Assembly (NCBI RefSeq): GCF_003925875.1
Contig: NZ_AP019309.1
Location: forward strand, 2,914,001 to 2,978,000
Direction of reading: 5' to 3'
DNA length: 64,000 nt
Source of the DNA: Intestinibaculum porci
GTDB lineage: Bacteria; Bacillota_I; Bacilli_A; Erysipelotrichales; Coprobacillaceae
A program made the translations under genes and the position numbers. Every line of letters starts with the position of its first letter. The first letter of the stretch is position 1. Positions 1 through 42,410 of this stretch are shown piece by piece. The notes under the pieces were generated by a model that was not told the origin of the DNA, made no database searches, and was given only the letters and a program-made list of their open reading frames with translations.

Positions 1-3000
1 TTCTAAGTCCGTCTTCTGCATTTTCAGATGTTCATTTTCATCCTGCATCGTTGGAATAGACGCTTTTAAATCATTGTACTTTTCATTTAAGCTGTTCCAG
101 TTCGTCTTCAGATCATTCTGGGCTTTCATTAATTCCAGATTCATTCGCTGAGACTTCTGATTGGTATCTTTTAGTTTTGTTAACTGGGACGTTAAGGCTT
201 CTTTTTCTTTGCCTAAAGCCTGATGTTCTTCTGTCAGTTTCTGATGATCAGTTGTTAAAGCTTCATGATTCTTACTTAAATCATCTAAAGCCTGCTTAGT
301 TGACGTATAAGAGTTTTCCAAAGAATTAAGCTGACCCGTAATATTTTCTAACTGATCTTTTAAATCCTTTTGCGAAGCGCTTAAGTCATCACGTTCTTTT
401 GCCATTTTTGCCTGATCCGCTTCTAACGCAGAAACCTGATTTGATAAAGTTGTGGCTTTCGCTTCACTCGCTTCTTTTTCATCTGTTAACGTCGCCATTG
501 CAGAGGCTAAAGCACTCTTTTCTTCAACCACTGCTGCCTGCGCTTTCTTTAACTCAGACACTTCTTTACGCAGTGCTTCTAAATCAGATAAATACTGCTG
601 CTTTTCATTTTTCAGCGTATCATTTTCCTCTTCTAAACGTGAGTTATCTAAGCGTAATTCTTTGACGCCTTCTTCTAACTTATCATTGGCATTCTTTAAA
701 CCTGTTAATTCACTATTTAAAGCATCTACCTGACTGTTAGTTTCGGTAACTGATTTATTTAACGCTTTTTTTTCCCGGCTTGCTTCTTCCACCTGATTAG
801 CTAATTCCATCTTATCAGTCTTCAGATCTTCAACCTCTAATTCTAAAGCTGTATAGCTGTTTTCCTGATCTTTCAGTTTAGATTCGAAATAAGTAATCTG
901 TGATTTCAGATATTTTAAGTCTTCCTGGGCTTTCTGATAGTTCGTCGTCAGTTCATCATTGGATTCCGTTAATGACTGATTCTGGGCCATTACCTGATCA
1001 TGACTTTCACTTAAAGAGGCATGGGTTTTCTTTAATTCTTCTAATTCTTTCGCTAAATTTAAAGCATTAGCGCGTAAAGTTGTAGCTTTATTCGCCGCAG
1101 TCACCTTTTCTTCATTTAACGCTGCCACATCTTTTTCTAACCCTTCAGCTTTTTCTTTTAAGCTGTCATAATCACTTTGTAAATGTTCTAAAGATGTCAC
1201 TTTCGCTTCAAATGTCTGCGCCTTTTCATAAGCCGTATTAAAGTCTTCTTCTAACGAAGAATACTTGCTTGTTAATTCATCAAAAGCTTCACTTTTAGCT
1301 GTTAAATCATCATTCAATGTTGCCTTTTCCTGTGATAAGGATGCCACATTACTTAAGGCATTGGTTAACTGATTCTTCACTTCATCTAATGATGACTGTA
1401 ATGAAGTCTTATTTTCCTGTAATTCATTAACCTGCTTTTCATAGTTTTGCGCTTTTTCATAAGCCGTATTAAAGTCTTCTTTTAATGAATCATACTTAGC
1501 TGTTAATTCATCAAAAGCTTCACTTTTAGCTGTTAAATCATCATTCAATGTTGTCTTTTCCTGTGATAAGGAAGCCACATTACTTAAGGCATTGGTTAAC
1601 TGATTCTTCACTTCATCTAATGATGACTGTAATGAAGTCTTATTTTCCTGTAATTCATTAACCTGCTTTTCATAATTCTGCGCTTTTTCATAAGCGGTAT
1701 TGAAATCATCTTTTAAGGAATCATACTTGCTCGTTAACTCATCTAAGTCCCCTGCTTTAACAGTCAAATCATCCTGTAATGATGCTTTTTCTTTCGTTAA
1801 AGAAGCGACGTTGCCTAAAGCAGTGGTTAACTGACCTTTGACTTCCTCTAATGATGACTGTAAATCATTGGTCTGATTTTCAAAACTCTGAGCTTTTTCA
1901 TAAGCAGTATTGAAATCATCCTTTAAGGAATCATACTTGCTCGTTAACTCATCTAAGTCCCCTGCTTTAACAGTGAGATCATCCTGTAATGAAGCCTTTT
2001 CTTTCGTTAAGGATGCCACATTGCCTAAAGCCGTGGTTAACTGACCTTTGACTTCCTCTAACGATGACTGTAAATCATTGGTCTGATTTTCAAAGTCTTG
2101 GGCTTTTTCAGTTACCGTATTAAAGTCTTCCTTTAGGGAATCATACTTACTCGTTAATTCATCTAAGTCCCCTGCTTTAACAGTGAGATCATCCTGTAAT
2201 GAAGCCTTTTCTTTCGTTAAGGATGCCACATTACTTAAGGCATTGGTTAACTGACTCTTCACTTCATCTAATGATGACTGTAATGAAGTCTTATTTTCTT
2301 GTAATTCATTAACCTGAGCTTCATAGTTTTGCGCTTTTTCATAAGCTGTATTGAAATCATCCTTTAAGGAATCATACTTACTCGTTAATTCATCTAAGTC
2401 CCCTGCTTTAACAGTGAGATCATCCTGTAATGAAGCCTTTTCTTTCGTTAAAGATGCCACATTACTTAAGGCATTGGTTAACTGACTCTTCACTTCATCT
2501 AATGATGACTGTAATGAAGTCTTATTTTCTTGTAATTCATTAACCTGAGCTTCATAGTTTTGCGCTTTTTCATAAGCAGTATTGAAGTCTTCCTTTAAGG
2601 AATCATACTTACTCGTTAATTCATCTAAGTCCCCTGCTTTAACAGTGAGATCATCCTGTAATGAAGCCTTTTCTTTCGTTAAGGATGCCACATTGCCTAA
2701 AGCAGTCGTTAACTGACCTTTAATTTCTGATAAAGAGGATGTTAAGCTGTCTTTATCATCGGTTAAATCAGCGACCTGTTTTTCATAGCTTTCTGCCTTT
2801 GTAGTAATATCTTTATACTGCGCTTCTAAGGACTGATACTGACTATCCAATCGGTCATATTCTTCCTGATTGCTTGCTAACTGATCAGAAGCTGTTTCAT
2901 ACTTTTGTTTAAAATCAGCTAAAGCCTGTGTTGTCGCTTCATGGCCTTTCTTTTCTTCTTCCAGGTCACTCTGCATGCTTTGGCTCTTTTCACGTAAAGA

Positions 3001-3756
3001 TTTAGCCATCGCAGAGATTGCGGTTAATTCCGTTTCTTTCTTTTTAAACGCTTCTGATAAAGCGTCTTTTTCACCTGATAAAGACGTCACTTGTTTCTTT
3101 AATTCAGCGAGCTCATGCGTGCCTTGTTCATACTTTTCATTTAATTCCTGATGCGCTGATGTTAACTGTGTTAAACGATCATTGGTATCATTAAAATCAT
3201 TTTGTAATTTGGCATGCGCTGCTAATGCTTGCGACTTTTCATCTTCTAACGCCGCAATCTTCTTTTCTAACGCTTTGTTATTTAAAGACAATTCATCATG
3301 GGTTTTCACTAAAGCATCGTACTGATCTGATAAACGTGCTAAGTGTTCAGCATGGTCTTTAGCTTCATCAGCCTTGGAATCATACTGCCCTTGTAAGTTT
3401 TCATAGTCCTGTTTTAAAGCCGTTAAAGCATCATTTGCTTTCGTGCTTTCACCTTTGTATTTTAGAAGATCATACTTTAATTCTTCTTTTTCTTTTTCTA
3501 ATTTAATATTGTTATACTGTAAACGATCTTTCTCTTCATCATCGGCGGGATGCGTACGTAATTCTTCATTTTCTTTCTTCAGAAAGTCGTTTCGTTCTTT
3601 TAATTTATTAATCTCAGATTCAAGATAATCCTCATAAGACTTCAGTTTCTGATTATATTCTTCTAACTGTTTGTTATGTTCTTCTATATTCTTCACCTTA
3701 GCCTGGATTTTTTTAATCTTTTCACGGATTTGTTCTTCAAATTGTTCTGATGCCAT
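1..3756 (-). CDS. Giant coiled-coil repeat protein (3' end outside window)
   Basis: The minus-strand frame is open from an ATG at 3756 to the window edge: 1252 codons without a stop. A GGAGGT ribosome site lies just upstream of the ATG. The protein starts MASEQFEEQIREKIKK, with no signal peptide or membrane segment in the visible part, and is rich in Lys, Glu, Leu, Ser, Asp and Gln with almost no Pro or Gly, as expected for one long coiled coil. Residues about 320-845 hold tandem repeats of 77 or 70 residues (separate entry). I cannot name a family; such proteins can be cytoskeletal or scaffold filaments, SMC-like rods or surface-protein rods, and the C-terminus that would decide lies outside the window. 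The GNAT gene is upstream on the same strand. The coding frame is certain; the function is unknown. Confidence 0.85.
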   Translation of the reverse strand, partial: MASEQFEEQIREKIKKIQAKVKNIEEHNKQLEEYNQKLKSYEDYLESEINKLKERNDFLKKENEELRTHPADDEEKDRLQYNNIKLEKEKEELKYDLLKYKGESTKANDALTALKQDYENLQGQYDSKADEAKDHAEHLARLSDQYDALVKTHDELSLNNKALEKKIAALEDEKSQALAAHAKLQNDFNDTNDRLTQLTSAHQELNEKYEQGTHELAELKKQVTSLSGEKDALSEAFKKKETELTAISAMAKSLREKSQSMQSDLEEEKKGHEATTQALADFKQKYETASDQLASNQEEYDRLDSQYQSLEAQYKDITTKAESYEKQVADLTDDKDSLTSSLSEIKGQLTTALGNVASLTKEKASLQDDLTVKAGDLDELTSKYDSLKEDFNTAYEKAQNYEAQVNELQENKTSLQSSLDEVKSQLTNALSNVASLTKEKASLQDDLTVKAGDLDELTSKYDSLKDDFNTAYEKAQNYEAQVNELQENKTSLQSSLDEVKSQLTNALSNVASLTKEKASLQDDLTVKAGDLDELTSKYDSLKEDFNTVTEKAQDFENQTNDLQSSLEEVKGQLTTALGNVASLTKEKASLQDDLTVKAGDLDELTSKYDSLKDDFNTAYEKAQSFENQTNDLQSSLEEVKGQLTTALGNVASLTKEKASLQDDLTVKAGDLDELTSKYDSLKDDFNTAYEKAQNYEKQVNELQENKTSLQSSLDEVKNQLTNALSNVASLSQEKTTLNDDLTAKSEAFDELTAKYDSLKEDFNTAYEKAQNYEKQVNELQENKTSLQSSLDEVKNQLTNALSNVASLSQEKATLNDDLTAKSEAFDELTSKYSSLEEDFNTAYEKAQTFEAKVTSLEHLQSDYDSLKEKAEGLEKDVAALNEEKVTAANKATTLRANALNLAKELEELKKTHASLSESHDQVMAQNQSLTESNDELTTNYQKAQEDLKYLKSQITYFESKLKDQENSYTALELEVEDLKTDKMELANQVEEASREKKALNKSVTETNSQVDALNSELTGLKNANDKLEEGVKELRLDNSRLEEENDTLKNEKQQYLSDLEALRKEVSELKKAQAAVVEEKSALASAMATLTDEKEASEAKATTLSNQVSALEADQAKMAKERDDLSASQKDLKDQLENITGQLNSLENSYTSTKQALDDLSKNHEALTTDHQKLTEEHQALGKEKEALTSQLTKLKDTNQKSQRMNLELMKAQNDLKTNWNSLNEKYNDLKASIPTMQDENEHLKMQKTDLE
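1220..2795 (-). repeat. Seven tandem 231/210-bp repeats inside the coiled-coil gene
   Basis: A marker string, (g)cttttt(c)ataagc.gtatt, recurs with its g at 1220, 1451, 1682, 1892, 2102, 2333, 2564 and, degenerate, 2795. Spacings are 231, 231, 210, 210, 231, 231 and 231 bp, that is 77 or 70 codons: 11 or 10 heptads. The two short units lack exactly 21 bp, so the heptad phase of the coiled coil is kept. Copies are near-identical over long stretches, which suggests recent expansion by unequal recombination. Confidence 0.9.
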
Positions 3757-3846
3757 CTCTTTTTACCTCCAATCTGATTATCATCATTTTATCATGTTTA
3801 TAATGTGAGGTATACATTTATTGTCTACTCACCATCTATTTTTCTC

Positions 3847-5361: not shown

Positions 5362-6915
5362 ATGAAGAAAAGCAACGATAACGAAATAGTGTTTGCCGAC
5401 ATAATCCCTGGTGAAAACGGCTTAATAGATGGGGATTTCATTCTCCAGCTTTTCAACCTGCATAAAGAAGACGTTGAGGATCTTTCATGCATTCATCAGG
5501 CAGACGGCATTTACGTTTTTATTACGCTAGCCGCAAGAAAGCACGAATGTCCGTACTGCACCACGCCCACCAAAAAAATCAAAGGCTATCACACCAAGAA
5601 GATCACCCATTCGATCTTTCACAACATCAACTGCTATATTGAATACCATGTTAGACGCTATGAATGCACTGCATGCGGCAAAACATTTAATGAAGACAAC
5701 CCCTTCTCAGAAGGCCATTCCACAATCAGTGTGCTGACCGTGTATAATGTCCTGACTGCATTGAGAAATCCTAAGCTGAGCTATGAGGATGTCGCCAAAA
5801 CGTTTAATATTTCTGCCTCTTCGGTAATGATCATATTTGACAGACACGTTCAGATTCCCAGAAAGCCGCTTCCCAAGTATATTCTAATCGACGAAGTTCA
5901 TGCCGTTGACAGCCGCGATTCAAAGTATGCGTGCGTTATCATGGACTTTGTAACGCAGGACATCATCGACATTCTGCCAACAAGAAGAAAGGAGGATCTT
6001 GTCAGATACTTCACTCTTATTCCCCGGGAGGAGCGTGAAAAAGTTGAAATCATCTGCTCTGACTGCTGGAAAACCTATCGTGAAATCACCAGGATATGCT
6101 TTCCTAACGCTATCCATGCCTGCGATGAATTTCACATCATTCAGATTTTTACAGAAATTTACAAAGGATTGCGAGTTGATACAATGAAGGCCGCTAAAAA
6201 TAAGCGTGACAAGCTCGAAAAGTATCTCACTACCCCTAACGGCCGCAAGTATCTCAACCACGAATGGAATAAATATGACATCCAGCATTATCTTCTCAGC
6301 AAGTGGAACTGGCTTCTGATGAAGTCTGATGAATATAAAAGCAAAGATAACAAGAAAAAAAAGAAGAAAAAAGGCAAGCACGCTGACGATGAGGAGCTGC
6401 CTATCCTGGATCCTAACAGAGCAAAGAAGATGAACAAAAAGCTGGGCAGATATCTCAATTTCTATGATATCCATAACCTTCTGATTGAAACCAATCCTGA
6501 TCTGGCTGAAGCGGAAAACTTCTACGACAAGCTTAGAGCGTTTTACCACACAATCAGCTACAATGAAGCCAGAGAAGCGCTCAATTCCCTGATTGGAGAC
6601 CTGAGAATGTCTAACGTTCCTGAAATATGCGGATATGCCAGCACCCTCAGCGAATGGAAAAAATCAATCGTCAATTCGTTCATCATTATTGACGATACGG
6701 GCACTCATATTTCGACCGGGAAAATTGAATCACGGAATAAAATCATCAAAGACGTAAAGAGGGCTTCAAACGGTGTGAGAAACTTCCAGAGATTCAGAAA
6801 CCGCTGCCTCTTTGCGATAAACACAGATACGCCAATCTACATGCCTTATACGCCTAAAAGAAGAATTGATGACGATAATGATCGCAGCAATAAATCTAAA
6901 AAAACAAGCAAGTAA
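5362..6915 (+). CDS. ISL3-family transposase
   Basis: A 517-aa DDE transposase. Two CxxC pairs (residues 63-66 and 102-105) form the N-terminal zinc ribbon of ISL3 transposases, followed by a helix-turn-helix-like stretch (about 140-165). Catalytic-domain motifs follow in the usual order: IDEVHAVD (D177), CSDCWKTY (D234), HACDEFHI (D255), and the late STGKIESRNKIIK with the catalytic Glu. Unusually, an insertion near residues 325-345 contains a run of seven lysines, and the C-terminus ends in a basic, Asp/Ser-rich tail. The enzyme cuts and joins the element's ends. The frame is intact, so it is potentially active. Confidence 0.9.
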   Translation: MKKSNDNEIVFADIIPGENGLIDGDFILQLFNLHKEDVEDLSCIHQADGIYVFITLAARKHECPYCTTPTKKIKGYHTKKITHSIFHNINCYIEYHVRRYECTACGKTFNEDNPFSEGHSTISVLTVYNVLTALRNPKLSYEDVAKTFNISASSVMIIFDRHVQIPRKPLPKYILIDEVHAVDSRDSKYACVIMDFVTQDIIDILPTRRKEDLVRYFTLIPREEREKVEIICSDCWKTYREITRICFPNAIHACDEFHIIQIFTEIYKGLRVDTMKAAKNKRDKLEKYLTTPNGRKYLNHEWNKYDIQHYLLSKWNWLLMKSDEYKSKDNKKKKKKKGKHADDEELPILDPNRAKKMNKKLGRYLNFYDIHNLLIETNPDLAEAENFYDKLRAFYHTISYNEAREALNSLIGDLRMSNVPEICGYASTLSEWKKSIVNSFIIIDDTGTHISTGKIESRNKIIKDVKRASNGVRNFQRFRNRCLFAINTDTPIYMPYTPKRRIDDDNDRSNKSKKTSK

Positions 6916-8120: not shown

Positions 8121-9542
8121 GTGAAAAACAATATCTTTTCAAAACAATATGATTTATTTCTCGGTTTAGACGTTTCTAAAGGCAAAGCAGACGCTGCCAT
8201 TTATAAACGTAACAGAGATAGAAATGTTAAATCCAAATTTGTTCGAAAGGCGATAAAGTTTAAATTCACCAAGCCAGGTGTCGATGAGTTCCTCGATACC
8301 GTTAGACATTACAAAGATGAAGACTGCCTGAGCGTTCTTTTCGCAATGGAAGTAACAGGCGTGTACTCTGACAATGTCTATATGTATATACGCGATCATC
8401 TCCAGGAAAGTGAAGCAGTTAAGTTTCTGGATACTAAATTCGTTGACAGGTGGCGCGATGCACACGGATATGCCAAATCCGATCCACTTGACGCTAAGAC
8501 TATTGCACAGATGTGCGCAACTGATGATGATGCACGTTATGTTGAAAAAGCTCCTAATTACAACGAAGAAAACAACAAAAAAGGACATGCGAATCTAAAA
8601 CTTCTGACGCATCGCTATCAGCAGCTGAATAAACAGCTAAATGCTGAATACAATCGACTGAGTGCACAGTGTGAAAAGTTCTTCCCGGAGCTTACCGCTG
8701 TTTTCTCAATACGTTCTGCGACTGCGCTTGCAATCTTAGAGGCATATCCTACTGCACATCATATCATTAAATCTTCTAAAAATGAAGTCTTTAATGTGGC
8801 TTACGAGGCCTCTAAGCATCGCTGTAAGGAAGCTAAAATAGACGATTTGTTCGATCTTTGTGAAAATACCATTGTTACTCTTAATGTTCCTCAGGAAGCT
8901 GAACTGATCACCGTTGAAATGGTCAGCAGTATCAGAAATCTGCTTCAGACAAGGAGAAACTACAAGAAAATGATGGTTAATCTTGCTTCAGAACAGCCTG
9001 CATTTAAGCGTCTTCAGACATTAATCGGTGTTGGTGAAGAATCCGCAGCTATGATTCTTGGTGAGGTATATGACATAGCTCTTTCCAAGAAAGCGGAAAA
9101 CTTTGCATCATACTGTGGATTAACGCCAAGAAATAAGAAATCAGGTTCATCAGTTGATACCCATGGGAAGATTTCCAAAATGGGATCGCCTATCCTCAGA
9201 CACGCTATATACCTGGCATCAGAGTATGCCAGACGGCATAATCCATACCTTGCCAACCTTTTTGCAAGGGTTAAAAATGGCAATAAGAAGCGCCATAAGC
9301 TTGCAATAGTAGCTGTTGCCAATAAGATGGCACGTTATATTTACGCTATTCTTAAGCATGATAGTGATTTCGTACTGCTTTATGAGGATCTCATGAAGCT
9401 TCCGGAAGATACCCGAGCCACGTTCTTCCAAAGTATTACTACTGACATTCCAGAAAAGACAAGAAGATGTATTTACAAATATTCTGATGAGAATGGTGTA
9501 GTACATGATTTTACCTTTACTGGAAATGACTCAGAAGAGTGA
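8121..9542 (+). CDS. IS110-family DEDD transposase
   Basis: A 473-aa protein with the two IS110 domains. The N-terminal RuvC-like DEDD domain shows LGLDVSKGKAD (D17), AMEVTGVY (E77) and KSDPLDAKTIA (D121, D124). The C-terminal IS116/IS110/IS902 domain shows LIGVGEESAAMILGEV, then FASYCGLTPRNKKSG and a serine-rich SGSSVDTHGKISKMGS stretch carrying the likely nucleophile. Length is a little above the usual 330-450 aa. These enzymes recombine DNA guided by a bridge RNA. The ATG follows a GAGGTACTT site. The frame is intact, so it is possibly active. Confidence 0.92.
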   Translation: MKNNIFSKQYDLFLGLDVSKGKADAAIYKRNRDRNVKSKFVRKAIKFKFTKPGVDEFLDTVRHYKDEDCLSVLFAMEVTGVYSDNVYMYIRDHLQESEAVKFLDTKFVDRWRDAHGYAKSDPLDAKTIAQMCATDDDARYVEKAPNYNEENNKKGHANLKLLTHRYQQLNKQLNAEYNRLSAQCEKFFPELTAVFSIRSATALAILEAYPTAHHIIKSSKNEVFNVAYEASKHRCKEAKIDDLFDLCENTIVTLNVPQEAELITVEMVSSIRNLLQTRRNYKKMMVNLASEQPAFKRLQTLIGVGEESAAMILGEVYDIALSKKAENFASYCGLTPRNKKSGSSVDTHGKISKMGSPILRHAIYLASEYARRHNPYLANLFARVKNGNKKRHKLAIVAVANKMARYIYAILKHDSDFVLLYEDLMKLPEDTRATFFQSITTDIPEKTRRCIYKYSDENGVVHDFTFTGNDSEE

Positions 9543-24716: not shown

Positions 24717-26506
24717 TTAATAGATTGCTCCTGTTCTGTTCACATACGATAGCTCTGGATAATTCTGCCAGTTTCTAGGATAGTACAGTGACTTGATCAC
24801 TGAATCGGATGCCTTGGTTAGGAACTTGAGTGCTGTATTCGTATCAGCCAATAGCGTATCCAGTTTTTCTACTTCTTTCGTATTTTCGTCAATCAGTCTC
24901 TGTAGCTTATTGATTCGAGCTAGAATAACCTTCTGATCCTTCTGTACCACTTTGAAAGGATGCTGTTCGCTCTTATACTCATAAGATGATTCACCAGACT
25001 CGTTTTGCTTGCTTCTGCGTCGAGCTCTTTCAGCACGCGCTTGTTCGCGTCTGGATTCCAGTTCTTCCTGGGTGATGAGTTCTTTGGCTGAGACGCCGAA
25101 ATAAACATCAGTCTGATAAATGCCTTCAGTAATATAGCGATAGTATTCTTCAGGAGTCTGTCCTGCCAGATCATACTGAGGTATTACTGTATTATACTGT
25201 TCCATAAAGTTTTTGATCATGGTTTCAACCGTATCAAAGTTAGGACATTTTTCAACTAATTCATTTAGAATAGATTTCATTCTTCCAAAAAAGCTTTCCA
25301 TTGGCGCATTATCGAGGCTGTTTCCGCGTCTGGATACTGACTGAATGAAGCCGTCATCTTCTAGAATTTCTCTGAATTCGGTGGAAAGGTATTGAGAGCC
25401 GTTGTCTGAATGAATATAGACATAAGGCTTTTTTCCATTTTCCTTCATGTATTTGCATGCCTTCTCAATTTCCTTTTCATGAAGATCCATCATCATGCAA
25501 TAAGCTCTTTCAACGAGGGTAACGTCCATTCTTTTAGAAATATGCCATCCAAGAATTTCATTGGTAAATGCGTCCTTAAATACGCATAGATAAGAGATGT
25601 TTTTATTGCCGTTATAGGAAATATAAGTGATATCAGTGAGAATAACCTTGCGCGGGTCTTGTCTGAAGTATCTTTTTACGTAATCGTTAACGTTATAATA
25701 AGGATGGTTGTATGTTGCCTGTCCCTTGTAGGCATCCTTATGGCGTAGGTTGGGGAACAAATTCAATTCCTGCATCAGACGCGTTACTTTTTTTTCACCA
25801 ACCGGCTGACCATTGATATTAAAATGCATGCGAGTAAAAAGAGCACAGAATGTTCTTCGCCCAGGCACGAAGCCAAAGGTTTTGACGATATCAATCATCT
25901 TATCCTTTATCATCTCATCTTCGGTAGCCTTTTGAATCTGGCTGGCAGATGGATTTTCACGTTTTTTCTTCCAGCACCTGTATTTTCTTGAAGTGATTTC
26001 AAATATCTTGCAGGCCTCACTGATTTTGACATCAGGATGATCTCTTATATACGTATCTGCGAGAAGACATTTATCTACCGCTATTTCTCGTTCTTCGATG
26101 ATGATACCTTCACCAGCAGTTTTGAGCCCTTTTTTTTTACGACTCCAACAACTGTTTCCAGATAGTCAATGCGTGAATTAAGATAGTCAACCATTTCCTG
26201 ATCGGAAAGATTGCCAACCTGATCACGCGGAACCATGCCGCTGACCTTCTTGGGCTTGCGTGCCTGTCCGCTGGCAGCGCGACCGGCAGCTGCGTAGGCG
26301 CGATCTTCTCCTAACGTGTTTACATCGTATCCGAGTGTCTTGTATGCCTTAATTGGTGACATGCCGCCATCCATCAGCTGTTTCATGCGGGCATAGAATT
26401 CCCTTGTGTAATAGATTCTGCCATCTGTTACCTTCTCAGTGTATTGGTTTTTAGAAGCCTCTTCTAAAGCTTTTTCCAGGTTAATCTGCTTATTTCTTTT
26501 TGCCAT
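24717..26506 (-). CDS. IS3-family OrfAB transposase made by -1 frameshift (copy 1)
   Basis: The frame of OrfB (visible ATG at 25913, stop 24717) stays open upstream into the slip site and joins OrfA at A9-GGG (26138-26127). The fused product is about 596 aa. The OrfB part has a HTH_21-like linker and the rve integrase core: VILTDITYISY (D), YIHSDNGSQYLS (D), NAPMESFFGRMKS (E), then EQYNTVIPQYDLAGQTPEEYY. The C-terminal 130 residues are charged and coiled coil (KLQRLIDENTKEVEKLDTLL). This is the enzyme form expected to do strand transfer. Confidence 0.85.
26081..26506 (-). CDS. IS3-type OrfA (copy 1)
   Basis: A 141-aa DNA-binding protein with a helix-turn-helix region (YTREFYARMKQLMDGGMSPIKAYKTLGY) and a leucine-zipper-like end (SRIDYLETVVGVV). 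It starts 46 bp after the 627-aa transposase stop, behind GGAGGAAAG. The A9 run at 26130-26138 near its end lets ribosomes shift to OrfB. In IS3 elements OrfA regulates and binds the ends. Confidence 0.85.
   Translation of the reverse strand: MAKRNKQINLEKALEEASKNQYTEKVTDGRIYYTREFYARMKQLMDGGMSPIKAYKTLGYDVNTLGEDRAYAAAGRAASGQARKPKKVSGMVPRDQVGNLSDQEMVDYLNSRIDYLETVVGVVKKKGSKLLVKVSSSKNEK
26127..26138 (-). other. Programmed -1 frameshift site (A9-GGG)
   Basis: On the minus strand nine A followed by GGG. OrfA reads GTA AAA AAA AAG GGC; a -1 slip reads AAA GGG CTC and stays open to 24717. The OrfB frame is offset by 593 nt from the OrfA start, i.e. the -1 phase. Copy 2 has the identical site at 36303-36314. 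Confidence 0.8.
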
Positions 26507-26552
26507 AATGCTTTCCTCCGCCTGATATGTATTTATTGGTGTCTGTAGTATA

Positions 26553-28436
26553 TCATGACAGTATCAGGTTGGCACGCGCTTTAGCTCTTTTTGTTGCAAG
26601 AGCCTTCGTTTTTTCATACTTATCAGTTTCCTTGGACATGTATAAATCAAACTGCTCAGGCGGCATGGCTTCAAGATACGATTCGTATTTCACGGGTGTC
26701 ATTTTATTTCTTGTCCACTGTGGTCTCTCGTTGTTGTAGTATTCCACATAGGAAAGCACCATTTCCCTCAGCTCCTCAATGGAACTGCAGCTGGTATAGT
26801 CACATTCATCCTTGAAATGGCCAAAAAAGCTTTCCTGTGAACTGTTGTCTTCACAGATGCCTCTTCTGGACATTGATTCTCTGAATCCCAGCTCCTTTAC
26901 CTTTTTCTGAAATGCTTCATTGAGATACAGTGCCCCCTGGTCGCTATGGAAGATGGCATTATCGCGAAAGGTGTAGCGTTCAAGCTGCTTCAGCGTCTCC
27001 ATAGTCATTGCCGAATCATTGTTTTCGCTCACCACGGCAGCTAATATGCGCCCTGTTACCGCATCTTTGACTGCTGAAAGATAGCCTCTGCCATTTGCTC
27101 CAAAAAACAGATAGGAAACATCAGTGAGAATGTGCGTAAAAGGCATGGCCAGTCTGAATTTTCGTTTAAGAAGATTAGGGCACTTGTATTTTTCAAGATG
27201 CTCACGAGCAGCCTTAAGGGACTGACGGGGAGCTCGAACTCCTGAATTAAGTCCATGCTTTCTCATCAGACGTGCTATTTTCTTAATTGAAAAGCTTTTG
27301 CCTGTAATCTCAGGCATCATCATGTGGATAGTTCTCTTGCCTTTGGGATAGCCTTTGTAATTCATTGTATCAATAATGGCCCTGACCTCTTCTTCTTCAT
27401 TCTGATTCCTTAGCTCTTCATATCTGCCGTAGGCATCGTTTCTTAAAATAGAGTAGAAGGTGGATCTTGACAGGCCTGCTTCACTAATGATTTGGCTTAA
27501 AGGCATAATGTGACTGTCCGCTAACGAGTCAAGCATTATGAAGGCTTCTCTTCTTAGGCTGGCGCTAAGATCCCATATGCATTGGGATATAGACTTCAGA
27601 AAACAAGCCATTTTATTGTATAGTGCCTCATAAAGATTTAGGGCAATGGCTTTGAGTCGATCAGATGAGCCTGCCTCTAAATGAATGGAACATGTATGAT
27701 CAGATTGAGTAATTTGCTTTTTTATGCGCTGTTTCGTGGAGATAGTAAGAATTGCAGAATCAATATCAAAGATTTTGAGAATATCATTAATGTGCATATC
27801 AGAGAAAATTGATGCCTCGCTGTAGAATACATCCGTCAGTTTGATTCTATGTGCAGTTATCCTTTCAACCATTGGGTGGTCTGTATATTCTTCGATTATA
27901 TTCTGATCAAACGTTTGCTTTTCATGCGGCTCAATATCCCCGTCAAATACTCTTTTTAGCGCATGAATACGCTGATAGCCAATTCGTTCTGGATCAAAGC
28001 CATCTGATTTAAGGACATCCTCGATTGCCTGATCAGGATATAAGCTATAGAGCTTTTCAGTATAGTCTTTTGAAAATGAAATGCCACGACGTGCGCGAAT
28101 GAATTTTCCGGTCGAGACGAGGAACTGATCATAGTTTTTATCTGTTTTATTACGTTTGGCAGAGTTACCCATACGTCCGTTAGTAGGTTTCCCATCGCGT
28201 TTAAAATTTCTTTGAATACGACTAATAATTTGTGCGTTAAAGAGAGAGTAGTCAATGCCATTTTCCTTCATGACCTCTCTAATTGATGAAATGCTTTTAT
28301 ATTTAATCCATCTCTCCCACATCATGATCCTGAATTCATAGGTAAATGAAATACGATTTGATCTCACCAGTTTGACGAATTTATTGGCTGAAAGTATTTT
28401 AATGGCTTCATCAGATATTACAGTTCCTTTAGACAT
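26553..28436 (-). CDS. Second, longer IS3-like transposase (copy 1)
   Basis: The start at 28436 (MSKGTVISDEAI) follows GAAGGT; the longer frame from 28472 is unlikely. The 627-aa protein has an N-terminal DNA-binding region (FTYEFRIMMWERWIKYKSIS, then a basic segment), a middle part with HTH_21-like MRKHGLNSGVRAPRQS, and an rve core: HILTDVSYLFFG (D), IFHSDQGALYLN (D), SSQESFFGHFKDECD (E), YNNERPQWTRNKMTP. It is a complete DDE transposase in one frame, different from the OrfAB encoded downstream. Copy 1 has Lys where copy 2 has Asn (NYKGYPKGK). Confidence 0.88.
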   Translation of the reverse strand: MSKGTVISDEAIKILSANKFVKLVRSNRISFTYEFRIMMWERWIKYKSISSIREVMKENGIDYSLFNAQIISRIQRNFKRDGKPTNGRMGNSAKRNKTDKNYDQFLVSTGKFIRARRGISFSKDYTEKLYSLYPDQAIEDVLKSDGFDPERIGYQRIHALKRVFDGDIEPHEKQTFDQNIIEEYTDHPMVERITAHRIKLTDVFYSEASIFSDMHINDILKIFDIDSAILTISTKQRIKKQITQSDHTCSIHLEAGSSDRLKAIALNLYEALYNKMACFLKSISQCIWDLSASLRREAFIMLDSLADSHIMPLSQIISEAGLSRSTFYSILRNDAYGRYEELRNQNEEEEVRAIIDTMNYKGYPKGKRTIHMMMPEITGKSFSIKKIARLMRKHGLNSGVRAPRQSLKAAREHLEKYKCPNLLKRKFRLAMPFTHILTDVSYLFFGANGRGYLSAVKDAVTGRILAAVVSENNDSAMTMETLKQLERYTFRDNAIFHSDQGALYLNEAFQKKVKELGFRESMSRRGICEDNSSQESFFGHFKDECDYTSCSSIEELREMVLSYVEYYNNERPQWTRNKMTPVKYESYLEAMPPEQFDLYMSKETDKYEKTKALATKRAKARANLILS

Positions 28437-28459
28437 AACAATTATTACCTTCATTACAA

Positions 28460-28524
28460 AAAATGGCACCATAGGTTAGGTGACATTACTGTCAATGTAA
28501 TGTTCCTTTCTATGGTACCATTTT
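28460..28524 (-). terminator. Inward terminator at the right IS end
   Basis: On the minus strand AAAATGGTACCATAG (28524-28510), which includes the terminal repeat, pairs with CTATGGTGCCATTTT (28474-28460; one G-U pair) and is followed by T6. Only transcripts starting outside the IS contain both arms, so outside transcription is stopped while an internal TTGACA-type promoter in the loop (28492-28497) escapes. Copy 2 repeats it at 38636-38700. Confidence 0.7.
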
Positions 28525-34892: not shown

Positions 34893-36682
34893 TTAATAGA
34901 TTGCTCCTGTTCTGTTCACATACGATAGCTCTGGATAATTCTGCCAGTTTCTAGGATAGTACAGTGACTTGATCACTGAATCGGATGCCTTGGTTAGGAA
35001 CTTGAGTGCTGTATTCGTATCAGCCAATAGCGTATCCAGTTTTTCTACTTCTTTCGTATTTTCGTCAATCAGTCTCTGTAGCTTATTGATTCGAGCTAGA
35101 ATAACCTTCTGATCCTTCTGTACCACTTTGAAAGGATGCTGTTCGCTCTTATACTCATAAGATGATTCACCAGACTCGTTTTGCTTGCTTCTGCGTCGAG
35201 CTCTTTCAGCACGCGCTTGTTCGCGTCTGGATTCCAGTTCTTCCTGGGTGATGAGTTCTTTGGCTGAGACGCCGAAATAAACATCAGTCTGATAAATGCC
35301 TTCAGTAATATAGCGATAGTATTCTTCAGGAGTTTGTCCTGCCAGATCATACTGAGGTATTACTGTATTATACTGTTCCATAAAGTTTTTGATCATGGTT
35401 TCAACCGTATCAAAGTTAGGACATTTTTCAACTAATTCATTTAGAATAGATTTCATTCTTCCAAAAAAACTTTCCATTGGCGCATTATCGAGGCTGTTTC
35501 CGCGTCTGGATACTGACTGAATGAAGCCGTCATCTTCTAGAATTTCTCTGAATTCGGTGGAAAGGTATTGAGAGCCGTTGTCTGAATGAATATAGACATA
35601 AGGCTTTTTTCCATTTTCCTTCATGTATTTGCATGCCTTCTCAATTTCCTTTTCATGAAGATCCATCATCATGCAATAAGCTCTTTCAACGAGGGTAACG
35701 TCCATTCTTTTAGAAATATGCCATCCAAGAATTTCATTGGTAAATGCGTCCTTAAATACGCATAGATAAGAGATGTTTTTATTGCCGTTATAGGAAATAT
35801 AAGTGATATCAGTGAGAATAACCTTGCGCGGGTCTTGTCTGAAGTATCTTTTTACGTAATCGTTAACGTTATAATAAGGATGGTTGTATGTTGCCTGTCC
35901 CTTGTAGGCATCCTTATGGCGTAGGTTGGGGAACAAATTCAATTCCTGCATCAGACGCGTTACTTTTTTTTCACCAACCGGCTGACCATTGATATTAAAA
36001 TGCATGCGAGTAAAAAGAGCACAGAATGTTCTTCGCCCAGGCACGAAGCCAAAGGTTTTGACGATATCAATCATCTTATCCTTTATCATCTCATCTTCGG
36101 TAGCCTTTTGAATCTGGCTGGCAGATGGATTTTCACGTTTTTTCTTCCAGCACCTGTATTTTCTTGAAGTGATTTCAAATATCTTGCAGGCCTCACTGAT
36201 TTTGACATCAGGATGATCTCTTATATACGTATCTGCGAGAAGACATTTATCTACCGCTATTTCTCGTTCTTCGATGATGATACCTTCACCAGCAGTTTTG
36301 AGCCCTTTTTTTTTACGACTCCAACAACTGTTTCCAGATAGTCAATGCGTGAATTAAGATAGTCAACCATTTCCTGATCGGAAAGATTGCCAACCTGATC
36401 ACGCGGAACCATGCCGCTGACCTTCTTGGGCTTGCGTGCCTGTCCGCTGGCAGCGCGACCGGCAGCTGCGTAGGCGCGATCTTCTCCTAACGTGTTTACA
36501 TCGTATCCGAGTGTCTTGTATGCCTTAATTGGTGACATGCCGCCATCCATCAGCTGTTTCATGCGGGCATAGAATTCCCTTGTGTAATAGATTCTGCCAT
36601 CTGTTACCTTCTCAGTGTATTGGTTTTTAGAAGCCTCTTCTAAAGCTTTTTCCAGGTTAATCTGCTTATTTCTTTTTGCCAT
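34893..36682 (-). CDS. IS3-family OrfAB transposase made by -1 frameshift (copy 2)
   Basis: The same protein as in copy 1 (OrfB frame 34893-36089 joined to OrfA at the A9-GGG run at 36303-36314). The two base differences seen in the OrfB frame (35334, 35469) are silent, so selection or very recent copying keeps it functional. Confidence 0.85.
36257..36682 (-). CDS. IS3-type OrfA (copy 2)
   Basis: Identical in sequence to OrfA of copy 1, with the same GGAGGAAAG ribosome site and A9 slip site near its end. See copy 1 for domain content. Confidence 0.85.
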   Translation of the reverse strand: MAKRNKQINLEKALEEASKNQYTEKVTDGRIYYTREFYARMKQLMDGGMSPIKAYKTLGYDVNTLGEDRAYAAAGRAASGQARKPKKVSGMVPRDQVGNLSDQEMVDYLNSRIDYLETVVGVVKKKGSKLLVKVSSSKNEK

Positions 36683-36728
36683 AATGCTTTCCTCCGCCTG
36701 ATATGTATTTATTGGTGTCTGTAGTATA

Positions 36729-38612
36729 TCATGACAGTATCAGGTTGGCACGCGCTTTAGCTCTTTTTGTTGCAAGAGCCTTCGTTTTTTCATACTTATC
36801 AGTTTCCTTGGACATGTATAAATCAAACTGCTCAGGCGGCATGGCTTCAAGATACGATTCGTATTTCACGGGTGTCATTTTATTTCTTGTCCACTGTGGT
36901 CTCTCGTTGTTGTAGTATTCCACATAGGAAAGCACCATTTCCCTCAGCTCCTCAATGGAACTGCAGCTGGTATAGTCACATTCATCCTTGAAATGGCCAA
37001 AAAAGCTTTCCTGTGAACTGTTGTCTTCACAGATGCCTCTTCTGGACATTGATTCTCTGAATCCCAGCTCCTTTACCTTTTTCTGAAATGCTTCATTGAG
37101 ATACAGTGCCCCCTGGTCGCTATGGAAGATGGCATTATCGCGAAAGGTGTAGCGTTCAAGCTGCTTCAGCGTCTCCATAGTCATTGCCGAATCATTGTTT
37201 TCGCTCACCACGGCAGCTAATATGCGCCCTGTTACCGCATCTTTGACTGCTGAAAGATAGCCTCTGCCATTTGCTCCAAAAAACAGATAGGAAACATCAG
37301 TGAGAATGTGCGTAAAAGGCATGGCCAGTCTGAATTTTCGTTTAAGAAGATTAGGGCACTTGTATTTTTCAAGATGCTCACGAGCAGCCTTAAGGGACTG
37401 ACGGGGAGCTCGAACTCCTGAATTAAGTCCATGCTTTCTCATCAGACGTGCTATTTTCTTAATTGAAAAGCTTTTGCCTGTAATCTCAGGCATCATCATG
37501 TGGATAGTTCTCTTGCCTTTGGGATAGCCATTGTAATTCATTGTATCAATAATGGCCCTGACCTCTTCTTCTTCATTCTGATTCCTTAGCTCTTCATATC
37601 TGCCGTAGGCATCGTTTCTTAAAATAGAGTAGAAGGTGGATCTTGACAGGCCTGCTTCACTAATGATTTGGCTTAAAGGCATAATGTGACTGTCCGCTAA
37701 CGAGTCAAGCATTATGAAGGCTTCTCTTCTTAGGCTGGCGCTAAGATCCCATATGCATTGGGATATAGACTTCAGAAAACAAGCCATTTTATTGTATAGT
37801 GCCTCATAAAGATTTAGGGCAATGGCTTTGAGTCGATCAGATGAGCCTGCCTCTAAATGAATGGAACATGTATGATCAGATTGAGTAATTTGCTTTTTTA
37901 TGCGCTGTTTCGTGGAGATAGTAAGAATTGCAGAATCAATATCAAAGATTTTGAGAATATCATTAATGTGCATATCAGAGAAAATTGATGCCTCGCTGTA
38001 GAATACATCCGTCAGTTTGATTCTATGTGCAGTTATCCTTTCAACCATTGGGTGGTCTGTATATTCTTCGATTATATTCTGATCAAACGTTTGCTTTTCA
38101 TGCGGCTCAATATCCCCGTCAAATACTCTTTTTAGCGCATGAATACGCTGATAGCCAATTCGTTCTGGATCAAAGCCATCTGATTTAAGGACATCCTCGA
38201 TTGCCTGATCAGGATATAAGCTATAGAGCTTTTCAGTATAGTCTTTTGAAAATGAAATGCCACGACGTGCGCGAATGAATTTTCCGGTCGAGACGAGGAA
38301 CTGATCATAGTTTTTATCTGTTTTATTACGTTTGGCAGAGTTACCCATACGTCCGTTAGTAGGTTTCCCATCGCGTTTAAAATTTCTTTGAATACGACTA
38401 ATAATTTGTGCGTTAAAGAGAGAGTAGTCAATGCCATTTTCCTTCATGACCTCTCTAATTGATGAAATGCTTTTATATTTAATCCATCTCTCCCACATCA
38501 TGATCCTGAATTCATAGGTAAATGAAATACGATTTGATCTCACCAGTTTGACGAATTTATTGGCTGAAAGTATTTTAATGGCTTCATCAGATATTACAGT
38601 TCCTTTAGACAT
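36729..38612 (-). CDS. Second, longer IS3-like transposase (copy 2)
   Basis: The 627-aa transposase as in copy 1, with one amino-acid change (Asn instead of Lys in NYNGYPKGK, base 37530). Start at 38612 behind GAAGGT. The DDE residues are unchanged. Confidence 0.88.
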   Translation of the reverse strand: MSKGTVISDEAIKILSANKFVKLVRSNRISFTYEFRIMMWERWIKYKSISSIREVMKENGIDYSLFNAQIISRIQRNFKRDGKPTNGRMGNSAKRNKTDKNYDQFLVSTGKFIRARRGISFSKDYTEKLYSLYPDQAIEDVLKSDGFDPERIGYQRIHALKRVFDGDIEPHEKQTFDQNIIEEYTDHPMVERITAHRIKLTDVFYSEASIFSDMHINDILKIFDIDSAILTISTKQRIKKQITQSDHTCSIHLEAGSSDRLKAIALNLYEALYNKMACFLKSISQCIWDLSASLRREAFIMLDSLADSHIMPLSQIISEAGLSRSTFYSILRNDAYGRYEELRNQNEEEEVRAIIDTMNYNGYPKGKRTIHMMMPEITGKSFSIKKIARLMRKHGLNSGVRAPRQSLKAAREHLEKYKCPNLLKRKFRLAMPFTHILTDVSYLFFGANGRGYLSAVKDAVTGRILAAVVSENNDSAMTMETLKQLERYTFRDNAIFHSDQGALYLNEAFQKKVKELGFRESMSRRGICEDNSSQESFFGHFKDECDYTSCSSIEELREMVLSYVEYYNNERPQWTRNKMTPVKYESYLEAMPPEQFDLYMSKETDKYEKTKALATKRAKARANLILS

Positions 38613-38685
38613 AACAATTATTACCTTCATTACAAAAAATGGCACCATAGGTTAGGTGACATTACTGTCAATGTAATGTTCCTTT

Positions 38686-39903
38686 CTATGGTACCATTTT
38701 ATTCTTATGATCCTTTTTTCTTTTTTTATCTTCATAAAGTGCCTGATCCGCTTTGCTGATTAAATCCATCAGCGGCGCCTGAGCCGCTTTGCTGATTAAA
38801 TCCATCAGCGGCGCCTGAGCCGTATTGCAGTAGGCAAAGCCAAAACAAACCGTTAAATCAAATCCGAGATCTTCTTTAATAATTTGCTCAGCTAAAGCTT
38901 CATTAAATGTATTTCTTAGTGATGTCGGTGTAACATTTTGGGCATCAACCGCCATTAAAAATTCATCACCGCCATAACGCGAAGCGAAGAAACCATGATG
39001 CGTACTGCCAAACTCTTTAAAAGTATTCGCAATGGCAATTAAGGCATGATCACCATTCACATGTCCATAAGTATCATTGATCTTTTTAAATTCATTAACA
39101 TCACAAATAGCCAGATAAAACGGCCGATTATCCGCATTTTTCAGACGACTTTCTAAGTAATCGCGAGAGCGATTACGATTATTGAGTCCGGTTAAGGCAT
39201 CCGTATTAATGCGGTCAGATTGAATCGATGAAAAGAGATAAAAGAGGCCAAGCATCGTTGACATCACTGAGAAAGGGGCAATGCTGATAAATACTTGAAA
39301 CAGACCACCAAGAAATGGGAAAAGCAAAAAGATCAGCAGCTGCATACTTTTCTTGCGGCGTACACGATCATGGATCGCCCAATAGGAAATCATCCCAATG
39401 GTAATAATTGGATAAAAGTAGCAGCAAAGCACCTGAATAAAATAATAAGGACCGCGATGATAAAGACTATCCAGCGTGATATAGTAAGTCCAATGCGTCC
39501 AATAAGAGAAAATATTAACGGCAATGCCCACTAACCACGGAATAACAAGCGCCTGACTCCAGCGCTTCTGTTTATAATTATCATGCTTAAAAGCAGGATT
39601 CAGCCTCACTTCGACAAAGCGCATCAGATAATAAAGAGCACCGATCGAGCCTATCATATCTAAATAATTCAGAAACCAGTAAGCATACTGATCAAACTGA
39701 AATCCTGTTAAGAAAAGCAAACGCCAAATCGTCTCGACAAAAATGACCATTAGCTCCATCGCAATCATGTTACGAAAAATCCGAATTTCGATGAAATTTC
39801 CGACATCGCGATCCATCTTGACCGCCATATAGATCATCAAGAATGCGCACAAAACAGTCGTCGCACAATACGTGATCGTATACTGTATAAAGTAACTTTG
39901 CAT
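38686..39903 (-). CDS. Membrane diguanylate cyclase (GGDEF), C-terminus altered by IS
   Basis: A 405-aa protein: about seven membrane helices (residues 8-235) then a GGDEF domain with DALTGLNNRN, FYLAICDVNEFKKINDTYGH and an intact ASRYGGDEFLMAV active site, so it should make c-di-GMP from two GTP. A 12-residue tandem duplication (APLMDLISKAAQ) lies near the C-terminus. The last residues (NKMVP) and the stop come from the IS end; without the IS the protein would end ...KKDHKK. GGGAG precedes the ATG. Confidence 0.9.
   Translation of the reverse strand: MQSYFIQYTITYCATTVLCAFLMIYMAVKMDRDVGNFIEIRIFRNMIAMELMVIFVETIWRLLFLTGFQFDQYAYWFLNYLDMIGSIGALYYLMRFVEVRLNPAFKHDNYKQKRWSQALVIPWLVGIAVNIFSYWTHWTYYITLDSLYHRGPYYFIQVLCCYFYPIITIGMISYWAIHDRVRRKKSMQLLIFLLFPFLGGLFQVFISIAPFSVMSTMLGLFYLFSSIQSDRINTDALTGLNNRNRSRDYLESRLKNADNRPFYLAICDVNEFKKINDTYGHVNGDHALIAIANTFKEFGSTHHGFFASRYGGDEFLMAVDAQNVTPTSLRNTFNEALAEQIIKEDLGFDLTVCFGFAYCNTAQAPLMDLISKAAQAPLMDLISKADQALYEDKKRKKDHKNKMVP
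38748..38819 (-). repeat. 36-bp exact tandem duplication in the GGDEF gene
   Basis: 38748-38783 and 38784-38819 are identical (unit begins ccgctttgctgattaaatcc). In frame, it adds 12 residues in the last helix of the GGDEF domain, about 45 bp from the IS copy 2 end. Confidence 0.92.
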
Positions 39904-40002: not shown

Positions 40003-42249
40003 TTAGTCAGTTGTTAAAGCAACATAGAGGTCACGATACTGTTTTGCAGAATTTTCCCAAGACACATCTTTATCCATGTTTCTCTGAACCATTTCATCGA
40101 AGCACCATCTGTTTGTGAAATAGAAAGTTTTAGCACGGTTGATAGCATCTAATAATAAGCCTGCATCATAACGGTCGAAAGTAAAGCCGTTACCCGTATT
40201 GGCATATTCATTATATGGTTCTACCGTATCCTTTAAACCGCCAGTTTCACGAACAATTGGGATATCACCATAGTGCATACCGATTAACTGTGTTAATCCA
40301 CATGGTTCAAATCTTGAAGGCACTAATAAAGCATCACAGCCGGCATAGATATGATGAGATCTTGTTTCATCATACATGATGTTGGCACAGACACGACCTT
40401 TATAAGCATTTTCATAATATCTGAAGCTATCTTCGTATTCTGGCTGACCAGTTCCTAAGATGACAACTTCAGTAAAGTCATCAACAATCTGTGGTAAGAT
40501 CTGATTTACTAAGTCTAAGCCCTTCTGATCTGTTAAACGAGAAATTAACCCGATGACAAATTTATTTTCATCAACCTGTAAACCTAATTCTTCCTGCAGC
40601 GCACGTTTGTTTTTAGGTTTGTTTTCTAAGACATTTGATAAATCATAATGCACTGAAATCATTGGATCAGTTGCTGGATTGAAGATATCATAATCGATTC
40701 CGTTCACGATTCCTCTTAATTTACCTGAATGATATCTTAAGTGGGCATCTAAGCCTTCACCATATTCAGGTGTCTGGATTTCTCCCGCATAAGTGTTTGA
40801 AACAGTTGTAATCGCGTTACAGTAAGTTAATCCACCTTTTAACATATTGGCATCTAACCAGTTTTCTGTCATGCAGTCTTTATTGAAGACATAATCTGGT
40901 AAGTTTGTCCAGTATTTCAGTGTTTCAATGTTGTAAACACCCTGGAAACGTAAGTTATGGATTGTCATAATGACTTTCGCATTCGCAATTGGGGTATTGT
41001 TAAACATTGTACGTAAGTAAAGCGGTACTAAGCTAGCCTGCCAGTCATGGCAATGGATCACATCAGGTTCCCAATCCATGAAGTTTAATGCGGCTAACGC
41101 AGCTTTACCGAAGTAACAGAACTTAGGAATATCATCAACTAAATTTGTATATGGATTCCCATTAGAGAAGAATTCCATATTATCAATGAAATCATAAACA
41201 ACGCCATCCCAGACGTATTCCATAATCCCGACATAATAAGAACGGCCATCAGAACATAAGTCCATATCGAAGGCTCCCTTGAATACCATCTTTTCCTGAT
41301 ATTCCTGTGGAATGCAGGCATAACGAGGTAAGATAACCTTCACATCACAGTTCTGTTTAGCAAGCGCTTTTGGTAAAGCGTACATAACATCTCCTAAACC
41401 ACCAGTTTTCACAAATGGGTAACATTCTGAACCAATGAATGCCACACTTCTTCTTGGCTGTGGTAATTCAGGCTGTGGTGCTGGTTTTGGTTCTTCCTTC
41501 ACTTCAACCTTAGGTGCTTCAGCTTCCGCTTTTGGTGCTTCAACCTTCACCGTTTCTTTTGGTTCTTCTTTCACTTCTGCTTTGGCAGCTTTTGGTGCTG
41601 CTTTCTTGGCAGTTGTCTTTTTCGTTTTCTTAGTGGCCTTAGCGGCTGGTTTTTCTTCTTTCGCTTCGGCTTTTTTCGCAGTTGTTTTCGCAGCTGGTTT
41701 TTCTTCCTTCACTTCGGCCTTTTTCGCATTTGTTTTCGCAGCTGGTTTTTCTTCCTTCACTTCTGCCTTTTTCGCAGTTGTCTTCGCAGCTGGTTTTTCT
41801 TCCTTCACTTCTGCCTTTTTCGCAGTTGTTTTCGCAGCTGATTTTTCTTCTTTCACTTCTGCCTTTTTCGCAGTTGTCTTCGCAGCAGGTTTTTCTTCTT
41901 TCACTTCTGCCTTTTTCGCAGTTGTTTTCGCAGCTGGTTTTTCAGCTTTCACTTCTGCTTTTTTCACAGTTGTCTTCGCAGCTGGTTTTTCTTCCTTCGC
42001 TTCCGCTTTCTTCACAGTTGCCTTAGCAGCTGGTTTTTCAGCTTTCACTTCAGTCTTTGTTGTTTTTGTTGTTGTTTTTGTATCTTTAACTTCCTTTTTA
42101 GGAGTTTCAACTTTCGATGTAGTCGCAGTTTTTGTGACTGCTTTTTCAGATTCTACTTTTAACGCAGCAGTTTCTTTTGCTTTTGCAGTTGTTGTTTTAT
42201 TTGTAGTACTCTTTCTTGTACTTGCCTTAGTTGTTTTCTTTCTTGGCAT
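40003..42249 (-). CDS. glgA: Glycogen synthase with long Lys/Ala/Glu repeat N-terminal tail
   Basis: A 748-aa protein; ATG 42249 (MPRKKTTKAS) is nine bases after GGAGGTG, better than 42255. The C-terminal about 480 residues are a GT5 glycogen synthase: FIGSECYPFVKTGGLGDVMY (ADP-glucose loop), VIHCHDWQASLVPLYL, IGLISRLTDQKGLDL, LVPSRFEPCGLTQLIG. It transfers glucose from ADP-glucose to glycogen. Normal GlgA begins at that point; here about 265 residues precede it, including about nine 16-residue units like EVKEEKPAAKTTAKKA and a Pro-rich end. The tail is polyampholytic, histone-H1-like and probably disordered. It has its own promoter (TATAAT on the minus strand at 42278-42273). Confidence 0.92.
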   Translation of the reverse strand: MPRKKTTKASTRKSTTNKTTTAKAKETAALKVESEKAVTKTATTSKVETPKKEVKDTKTTTKTTKTEVKAEKPAAKATVKKAEAKEEKPAAKTTVKKAEVKAEKPAAKTTAKKAEVKEEKPAAKTTAKKAEVKEEKSAAKTTAKKAEVKEEKPAAKTTAKKAEVKEEKPAAKTNAKKAEVKEEKPAAKTTAKKAEAKEEKPAAKATKKTKKTTAKKAAPKAAKAEVKEEPKETVKVEAPKAEAEAPKVEVKEEPKPAPQPELPQPRRSVAFIGSECYPFVKTGGLGDVMYALPKALAKQNCDVKVILPRYACIPQEYQEKMVFKGAFDMDLCSDGRSYYVGIMEYVWDGVVYDFIDNMEFFSNGNPYTNLVDDIPKFCYFGKAALAALNFMDWEPDVIHCHDWQASLVPLYLRTMFNNTPIANAKVIMTIHNLRFQGVYNIETLKYWTNLPDYVFNKDCMTENWLDANMLKGGLTYCNAITTVSNTYAGEIQTPEYGEGLDAHLRYHSGKLRGIVNGIDYDIFNPATDPMISVHYDLSNVLENKPKNKRALQEELGLQVDENKFVIGLISRLTDQKGLDLVNQILPQIVDDFTEVVILGTGQPEYEDSFRYYENAYKGRVCANIMYDETRSHHIYAGCDALLVPSRFEPCGLTQLIGMHYGDIPIVRETGGLKDTVEPYNEYANTGNGFTFDRYDAGLLLDAINRAKTFYFTNRWCFDEMVQRNMDKDVSWENSAKQYRDLYVALTTD
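41636..42052 (-). repeat. 48-bp tandem repeats encoding the GlgA tail
   Basis: About nine direct repeats of a 48-bp unit (16 codons), many identical at the DNA level, with variation at a few codons (KPAAK/KSAAK, TTAKK/TTVKK/TNAKK). Confidence 0.9.
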
Positions 42250-42410
42250 TTTCATACACCTCCATCGAGTAGATTATATCACAAACTTTATTATTTAAAA
42301 CACGAACTTTCACATTGATTGTATTTTTTGAATTTATTCAATTTATGATTTTCTATTTTGTGATTTTACTACATTATATCATATCTTTTTCATATTACTG
42401 ATAGCTAATA

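Follow-up and report, generated by a model that had tools for sequence, protein, structure and literature searches.

The first 3,756 bases of the window (the whole stretch of Intestinibaculum porci DNA analysed here, 64,000 nucleotides, bases 2914001-2978000 of a genome of 3.21 Mb in one contig) hold most of a gene for a giant coiled-coil protein. What is such a protein for, and is the spacing of its repeats held in phase with the heptad? A first-pass annotation of this DNA had proposed a cytoplasmic filament or molecular ruler whose length could be tuned by recombination.

The complete gene and its protein

The gene lies on the minus strand, with its ATG at 3756, and runs off the window, so that codons 1-1252 of 1350 occupy positions 1..3756 (-). 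Fetching the 3' end gave the complete gene of 1350 codons (4053 bp, L002:11704-15756 minus), of which the final 98, together with the stop, fall beyond the window edge. The protein begins MASEQFEEQIREKI and ends HEESKSDE. Its start is supported by an N-terminus conserved in Kandleria (see below) and by a Shine-Dalgarno sequence, GGAGGT, at 3765..3770 (-), 8 nt 5' of the ATG. Leucine (13 per cent), glutamate (12.4 per cent), lysine (11.9 per cent) and alanine (9 per cent) dominate the composition; there are two prolines (70 and 1235), no cysteine and one tryptophan, and the net charge is -107. The codons (TTA for 141 of 175 leucines, GAA for 92 per cent of glutamates) resemble those of the window's glycogen phosphorylase gene, and this native-like usage suggests that the rod gene may be well expressed.

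As the first-pass annotation had observed, there is no N-terminal signal peptide, and the C-terminus, which it had not seen, brings no LPXTG motif, membrane helix or ATPase head to the complete protein. Hydropathy over 19 residues peaks at 0.73, so that no segment counts as hydrophobic. Because signal peptide, hydrophobic segment and C-terminal anchor are all missing, a cytoplasmic location is likely.

Family searches were of little help in placing the protein. Thirty-nine Pfam families match it, overlapping one another and mostly representing eukaryotic coiled coils, and since so many overlapping coiled-coil families are involved we take the matches in Pfam, NCBIfam, PHROGs and PADLOC as compositional. 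This includes ZapB, ATG16 and OVT1, which exceed the Pfam gathering score on sub-stretches of the 1350-aa rod. Against the PDB, phmmer returned no match.

Heptad register and tandem array

Nearly the whole protein is predicted to be heptad coiled coil. A COILS-type scan scores above 0.9 for 97 per cent of residues, and the Fourier phases, which do not depend on the weights of that scan, agree. The hydrophobic period is a sharp 3.50 residues throughout, and in rod 1 its power is 136, whereas 2000 shuffled sequences average 1.0 and reach 7.3 at most. With a hidden-Markov register model, one register extends over ~780 residues (74-857) and, after a single shift, a second continues for ~480 residues to the C-terminus. 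With the sequence cut into 43 blocks of 28 residues, the assigned register was independently the best in 42. For comparison, the SMC protein of the same genome is divided into five coil segments, the longest of 145 residues.

AF2, run on the single sequence as a monomer, predicts a head helix at residues 2-67, a break at 68-72 and then one long helix (pLDDT 82). Together with the register maps and the Kandleria alignment, this delimits a head helix conserved in Kandleria (residues 1-67; 3556..3756, -), a hinge containing Pro70 (residues 68-72; 3541..3555, -), rod 1 in one unbroken register of ~112 heptads (residues 73-857; 1186..3540, -), rod 2 in a second unbroken register (residues 858-1235; 52..1185, -) and a conserved tail (residues 1236-1350), of which only the start lies in the window (1..51, -). 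The discontinuity between the rods, near residues 856-859 (1180..1191, -), is of the stammer type. It is a shift of +4 in register index, equal to a 3-residue insertion, and is the sole rod shift in both orthologues; alternative shift types lose 22 log units or more in this protein and 16 or more in the Kandleria one. Leucine fills 53-66 per cent of core d positions and asparagine 40 per cent of a positions in rod 2 of the Kandleria protein, a combination that favours parallel dimers, and from this we infer both the dimeric state and the parallel orientation of the rod. Outside the array, charge periodicity revealed no clear common assembly period.

The repeats form a tandem array of seven units at residues 357-881 (1114..2688, -), located by TRF, self-identity offsets and unit parsing; run on the window, TRF places the array at 1207-2721, with periods of 231 and 210 bp. 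Two units of 77 residues (357-433 and 434-510) are followed by two of 70 (511-580 and 581-650) and three more of 77 (651-727, 728-804 and 805-881). The second half of the last unit is diverged, and the register discontinuity falls inside this unit. Each 70-residue unit is a 77-residue unit minus exactly one block of seven, the strongest self-identity offsets (77, 217, 224, 147 and 70) are all multiples of 7, and the units sum to 525 residues, or 75 heptads. The heptad-multiple repeats of the first-pass annotation are thus real, though they do not describe the whole protein: the array makes up 39 per cent of it, and the remainder is non-repetitive coiled coil.

For most pairs of units dN/dS is 0.08-0.28, with 0.49 and 0.31 in two pairs involving the diverged last unit. 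Since synonymous differences far outnumber replacements, the protein sequence of the array appears to be under purifying selection. At the DNA level the longest exact repeats are 125, 101 and 96 nt, the first at a spacing of 231 bp, and repeats of this length make a change of array length by recombination plausible.

The same annotation had concluded from the one-heptad size difference that coiled-coil phase is selected. Unit sizes of 77 and 70 are weak evidence in themselves, as each has a 1 in 7 chance of being a multiple of seven. The case is made instead by the register of the whole protein and by the Kandleria orthologue, whose rod differs from this one by 75 heptads, and with these the selection of heptad phase is supported.

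A Kandleria orthologue and the neighbourhood of the gene

The tail profile identified an 821-aa protein in Kandleria vitulina DSM 20405 (NZ_KL370857.1, L037:4495-6960), which we identify as an orthologue by its head, Pro70, tail and adjoining HAD gene. When the two proteins are aligned locally, the head (z 5.1) and the tail (z 6.8) stand out, with none of 500 heptad-preserving shuffles reaching either score, and the rods do not outscore all of their shuffles (z 1.7 for non-repeat rod 1, z 0.2 for rod 2). The head aligns at offset 0 with Pro70 in the identical position, a one-residue gap follows just past this hinge, and the tail is ungapped at offset 524. A proline also stands near the junction of rod and tail in each protein, the two being offset by seven residues when aligned without gaps. 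For the Kandleria C-terminus, AF2 (monomer, pLDDT 86) predicts a rod helix that breaks at the proline (154-158 of the model), followed by a tail helix of 88 residues and a short end segment.

The Kandleria rod is shorter by a net 525 residues, or 75 heptads, a length equal to that of the array (5x77 + 2x70). Because the rods cannot be aligned, we do not claim the array alone as the source of this difference. The Kandleria protein lacks a tandem array and carries extra prolines in its rod 2 (599 and 641). It too has one register shift, near residue 370; sequence comparison did not establish homology of the two shift sites, and we therefore regard only the type of shift as common to the two.

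Across 316 genomes from the order and 395 from the class, head and tail profiles found only these two true members, at 160-270 bits. All other matches were below 32 bits and were unrelated where inspected, the weak class-level matches not having been read individually. There was no match in a genome of the same genus (82 per cent complete, 330 contigs). Among GTDB contigs, a scan with the whole protein found no relative and the tail profile found Kandleria alone, while no viral contig encodes a relative. Endonuclease-anchored loci from twenty genomes of the family contained no further coiled-coil ORF, and in one genome (G011) the HAD orthologue is present but the coil gene is missing. As far as these searches extend, the rod protein is a lineage-restricted, undescribed member of the bacterial coiled-coil-rich proteins. 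A 1507-aa frame elsewhere in the genome of the window is, by reading, a JetC/SMC-like ATPase. Near position 2240000 of this genome (L128), an apparent ORF for a giant JetC/MukB-like SMC ATPase sits beside a 527-aa JetA-like ORF, a possible candidate Wadjet system.

The neighbours of the rod gene encode a GNAT protein, a HAD phosphatase, a 3-hydroxyacyl-CoA dehydrogenase and IS elements; none is linked to shape or division. In Kandleria the coil gene is directly followed by the orthologue of the downstream HAD-phosphatase gene (46 per cent identity). We considered an operon of the two genes and dropped it, since in each genome terminator-like hairpins separate them; these were read by eye, and the scanner did not report them. 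Just beyond the window edge, a 61-aa acidic ORF (MSNFEVLDYF..., L002:11526-11711 minus) has a start that overlaps the coil stop codon. In Kandleria its orthologue (52 per cent identity, L037:836-1018) is found 3.5 kb upstream of the coil gene; no other locus fetched contains one. Its product could be a partner of the coil protein, or the ORF could merely be a common neighbour.

Compared with Kandleria, the surroundings of the coil gene have been rearranged. The coil region is flanked by two copies of an IS110 transposase, identical in protein sequence (window 8121-9542 and L002:7867-9288, ~12 kb apart), and an ISL3 transposase (window 5362-6915) adjoins it. An IS3-type element with two ORFs (398 and 639 aa) occurs in two near-identical copies, at 24717-28472 and 34893-38648, which are a likely substrate for rearrangement in the region. 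An IscB-like RRXRR/HNH protein is encoded at L002:6185-7540; 2.1 kb from it, past an IS110 copy, lies a HEARO (omega-RNA-type) RNA (RF02033, 122 bits, L002:9662-9904), and this pair may have been split by an IS insertion. Two other repeats occur in the window. The glycogen/starch synthase at 40003-42255 (minus) has a 270-residue N-terminal extension in which 16-residue repeats rich in Lys, Ala and Glu predominate (41638-42058; TRF 48 bp x 8.8), so that a metabolic enzyme carries a basic tail resembling histone H1. A GGDEF domain gene (38686-39903) contains a 36-bp tandem duplication (QAPLMDLISKA) at 38741-38822.

Possible roles and known systems

We give about an even chance to a cytoplasmic structural coiled-coil rod that most likely self-assembles into a filament or scaffold. 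The protein would form a parallel two-stranded rod, ~170 nm long if the usual rise of a coiled coil applies, with a short head at one end and a tail at the other, both helical. These ends would make sequence-specific contacts, for self-assembly or docking, and the shaft would set a distance. End-to-end or lateral self-assembly could then build a filament or scaffold, as in bacterial coiled-coil-rich IF-like proteins. The length of the shaft would be altered by duplication or deletion of whole-heptad units, the only changes likely to be tolerated because any others would break the packing of the core. Counting against this explanation, only two orthologues are known, with no match in the same-genus genome, and coiled-coil content is by itself no predictor of polymerisation (PMC7002697). 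The neighbours without a link to shape or division and the lack of a clear charge period outside the array weigh on the same side.

The main rival is a tether or adjustable spacer, for which the case is appreciably weaker: head and tail would bind two different partners up to ~170 nm apart, and the copy number of the array would tune the distance. Conserved ends on an unconserved rod, helix breaks that set head and tail apart from the rod in the AF2 models and a heptad-quantised change of length all agree with this. On the other side, no partner has been identified, and rod length is nearly twofold apart in the two orthologues (1350 vs 821 aa), whereas spacer coiled coils are usually conserved in length (PMC5082667). 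This near twofold difference also disfavours a ruler of conserved length. From the first-pass proposal, then, the cytoplasmic location stands as likely, and an adjustable spacer or a filament subunit is a possible form of the rest.

A low-constraint helical filler whose repeats are functionally meaningless would account for the patchy distribution, in two genomes only. We consider it improbable, given the low dN/dS between units, ends conserved across genera, native-like codon usage and a register held for more than 1200 residues.

The first-pass annotation had named SMC, surface-protein and phage tape-measure families as ones that would overturn its reading, and we place the protein in none of them. 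Surface fibrillar proteins typically carry variable-number tandem coiled-coil repeats, and the repeats here are of the type common among them. A secreted or surface fibril such as an M-protein-like adhesin is nevertheless very unlikely, as no signal peptide, membrane segment, LPXTG or other anchor is present with both termini seen. Less credible again is an ATPase-linked coiled coil, whether SMC/Rad50-like, Wadjet JetC-like or of another kind. Although the top NCBIfam match is SMC_prok_B (207 bits) and the top PADLOC match JetC (114 bits), the former is far below the SMC cut-off of 567, and only the coil parts of the models are covered (positions 226-512 of the SMC model). The complete sequence contradicts such a reading, with an ATPase head at neither terminus, and the genome has a separate, complete SMC (984 bits). 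A phage tape measure or other prophage protein, suggested by weak PHROG matches of 29-38 bits, is the least likely reading and is contradicted by the context: no phage genes surround the gene, hydrophobic segments are absent, no viral contig encodes a relative, and phage sequence gave only one weak, low-identity match.

Returning to the structural rod, a bolder form of the idea, which we regard as rather unlikely, is a cytoskeletal family, so far undescribed, that belongs to the Kandleria lineage and combines fixed head and tail with a filament or scaffold subunit length quantised in heptads by recombining 70/77-residue units. If so, strains may differ in rod steps of ~10-11 nm with the register kept. 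Coiled-coil length is commonly less variable than other regions (PMC5082667), and in this pair of orthologues ends and heptad phase are kept with rods almost twofold apart in length, the longer one carrying a whole-heptad array. Should the protein assemble, it would offer a natural series for the effects of subunit length on filaments or on the architecture of the cell in bacteria, and this among gut Firmicutes outside the model species, whose coiled-coil cytoskeletal proteins have received little attention.

Among known systems, the layout most resembles crescentin and metazoan IF proteins, which have a head, a long coiled-coil rod and a tail, a linker near the head and one rod discontinuity (PMC3087291, PMC10873595). 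The same tripartite layout is predicted here, with linkers at the AF2 breaks (68-72 in this protein, 154-158 in the model of the Kandleria tail). The rod, however, is about three times longer and carries a tandem array, and its discontinuity is a 3-residue-insertion stammer; the four-residue stutter diagnostic of IF proteins and crescentin (PMC10873595) is absent. Pfam Rod_CreS (57 bits, cut-off 100) and Filament (33.5, cut-off 40) both fall below threshold. By the features tested, the protein is IF-like in layout yet not a member of the crescentin or intermediate-filament families. SpiroCoCo (NF047515) and a helix-rich Mycoplasma family (TIGR04523) are long bacterial helical proteins too, and the rod protein belongs to neither (62 vs a cut-off of 125, and 154 vs 270). 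The broader class of bacterial CCRPs (FilP, Scy, the Helicobacter Ccrps and cyanobacterial Fm7001) is defined by a coiled-coil rod with no catalytic domain and no export signal (PMC7002697), and the rod protein shares this character, being dominated by coiled coil with no enzymatic domain by Pfam, NCBIfam or the COILS-type scan. It shares no detected sequence family with these proteins beyond heptad composition, and differs from them in a register that is nearly unbroken and an array that is quantised in heptads.
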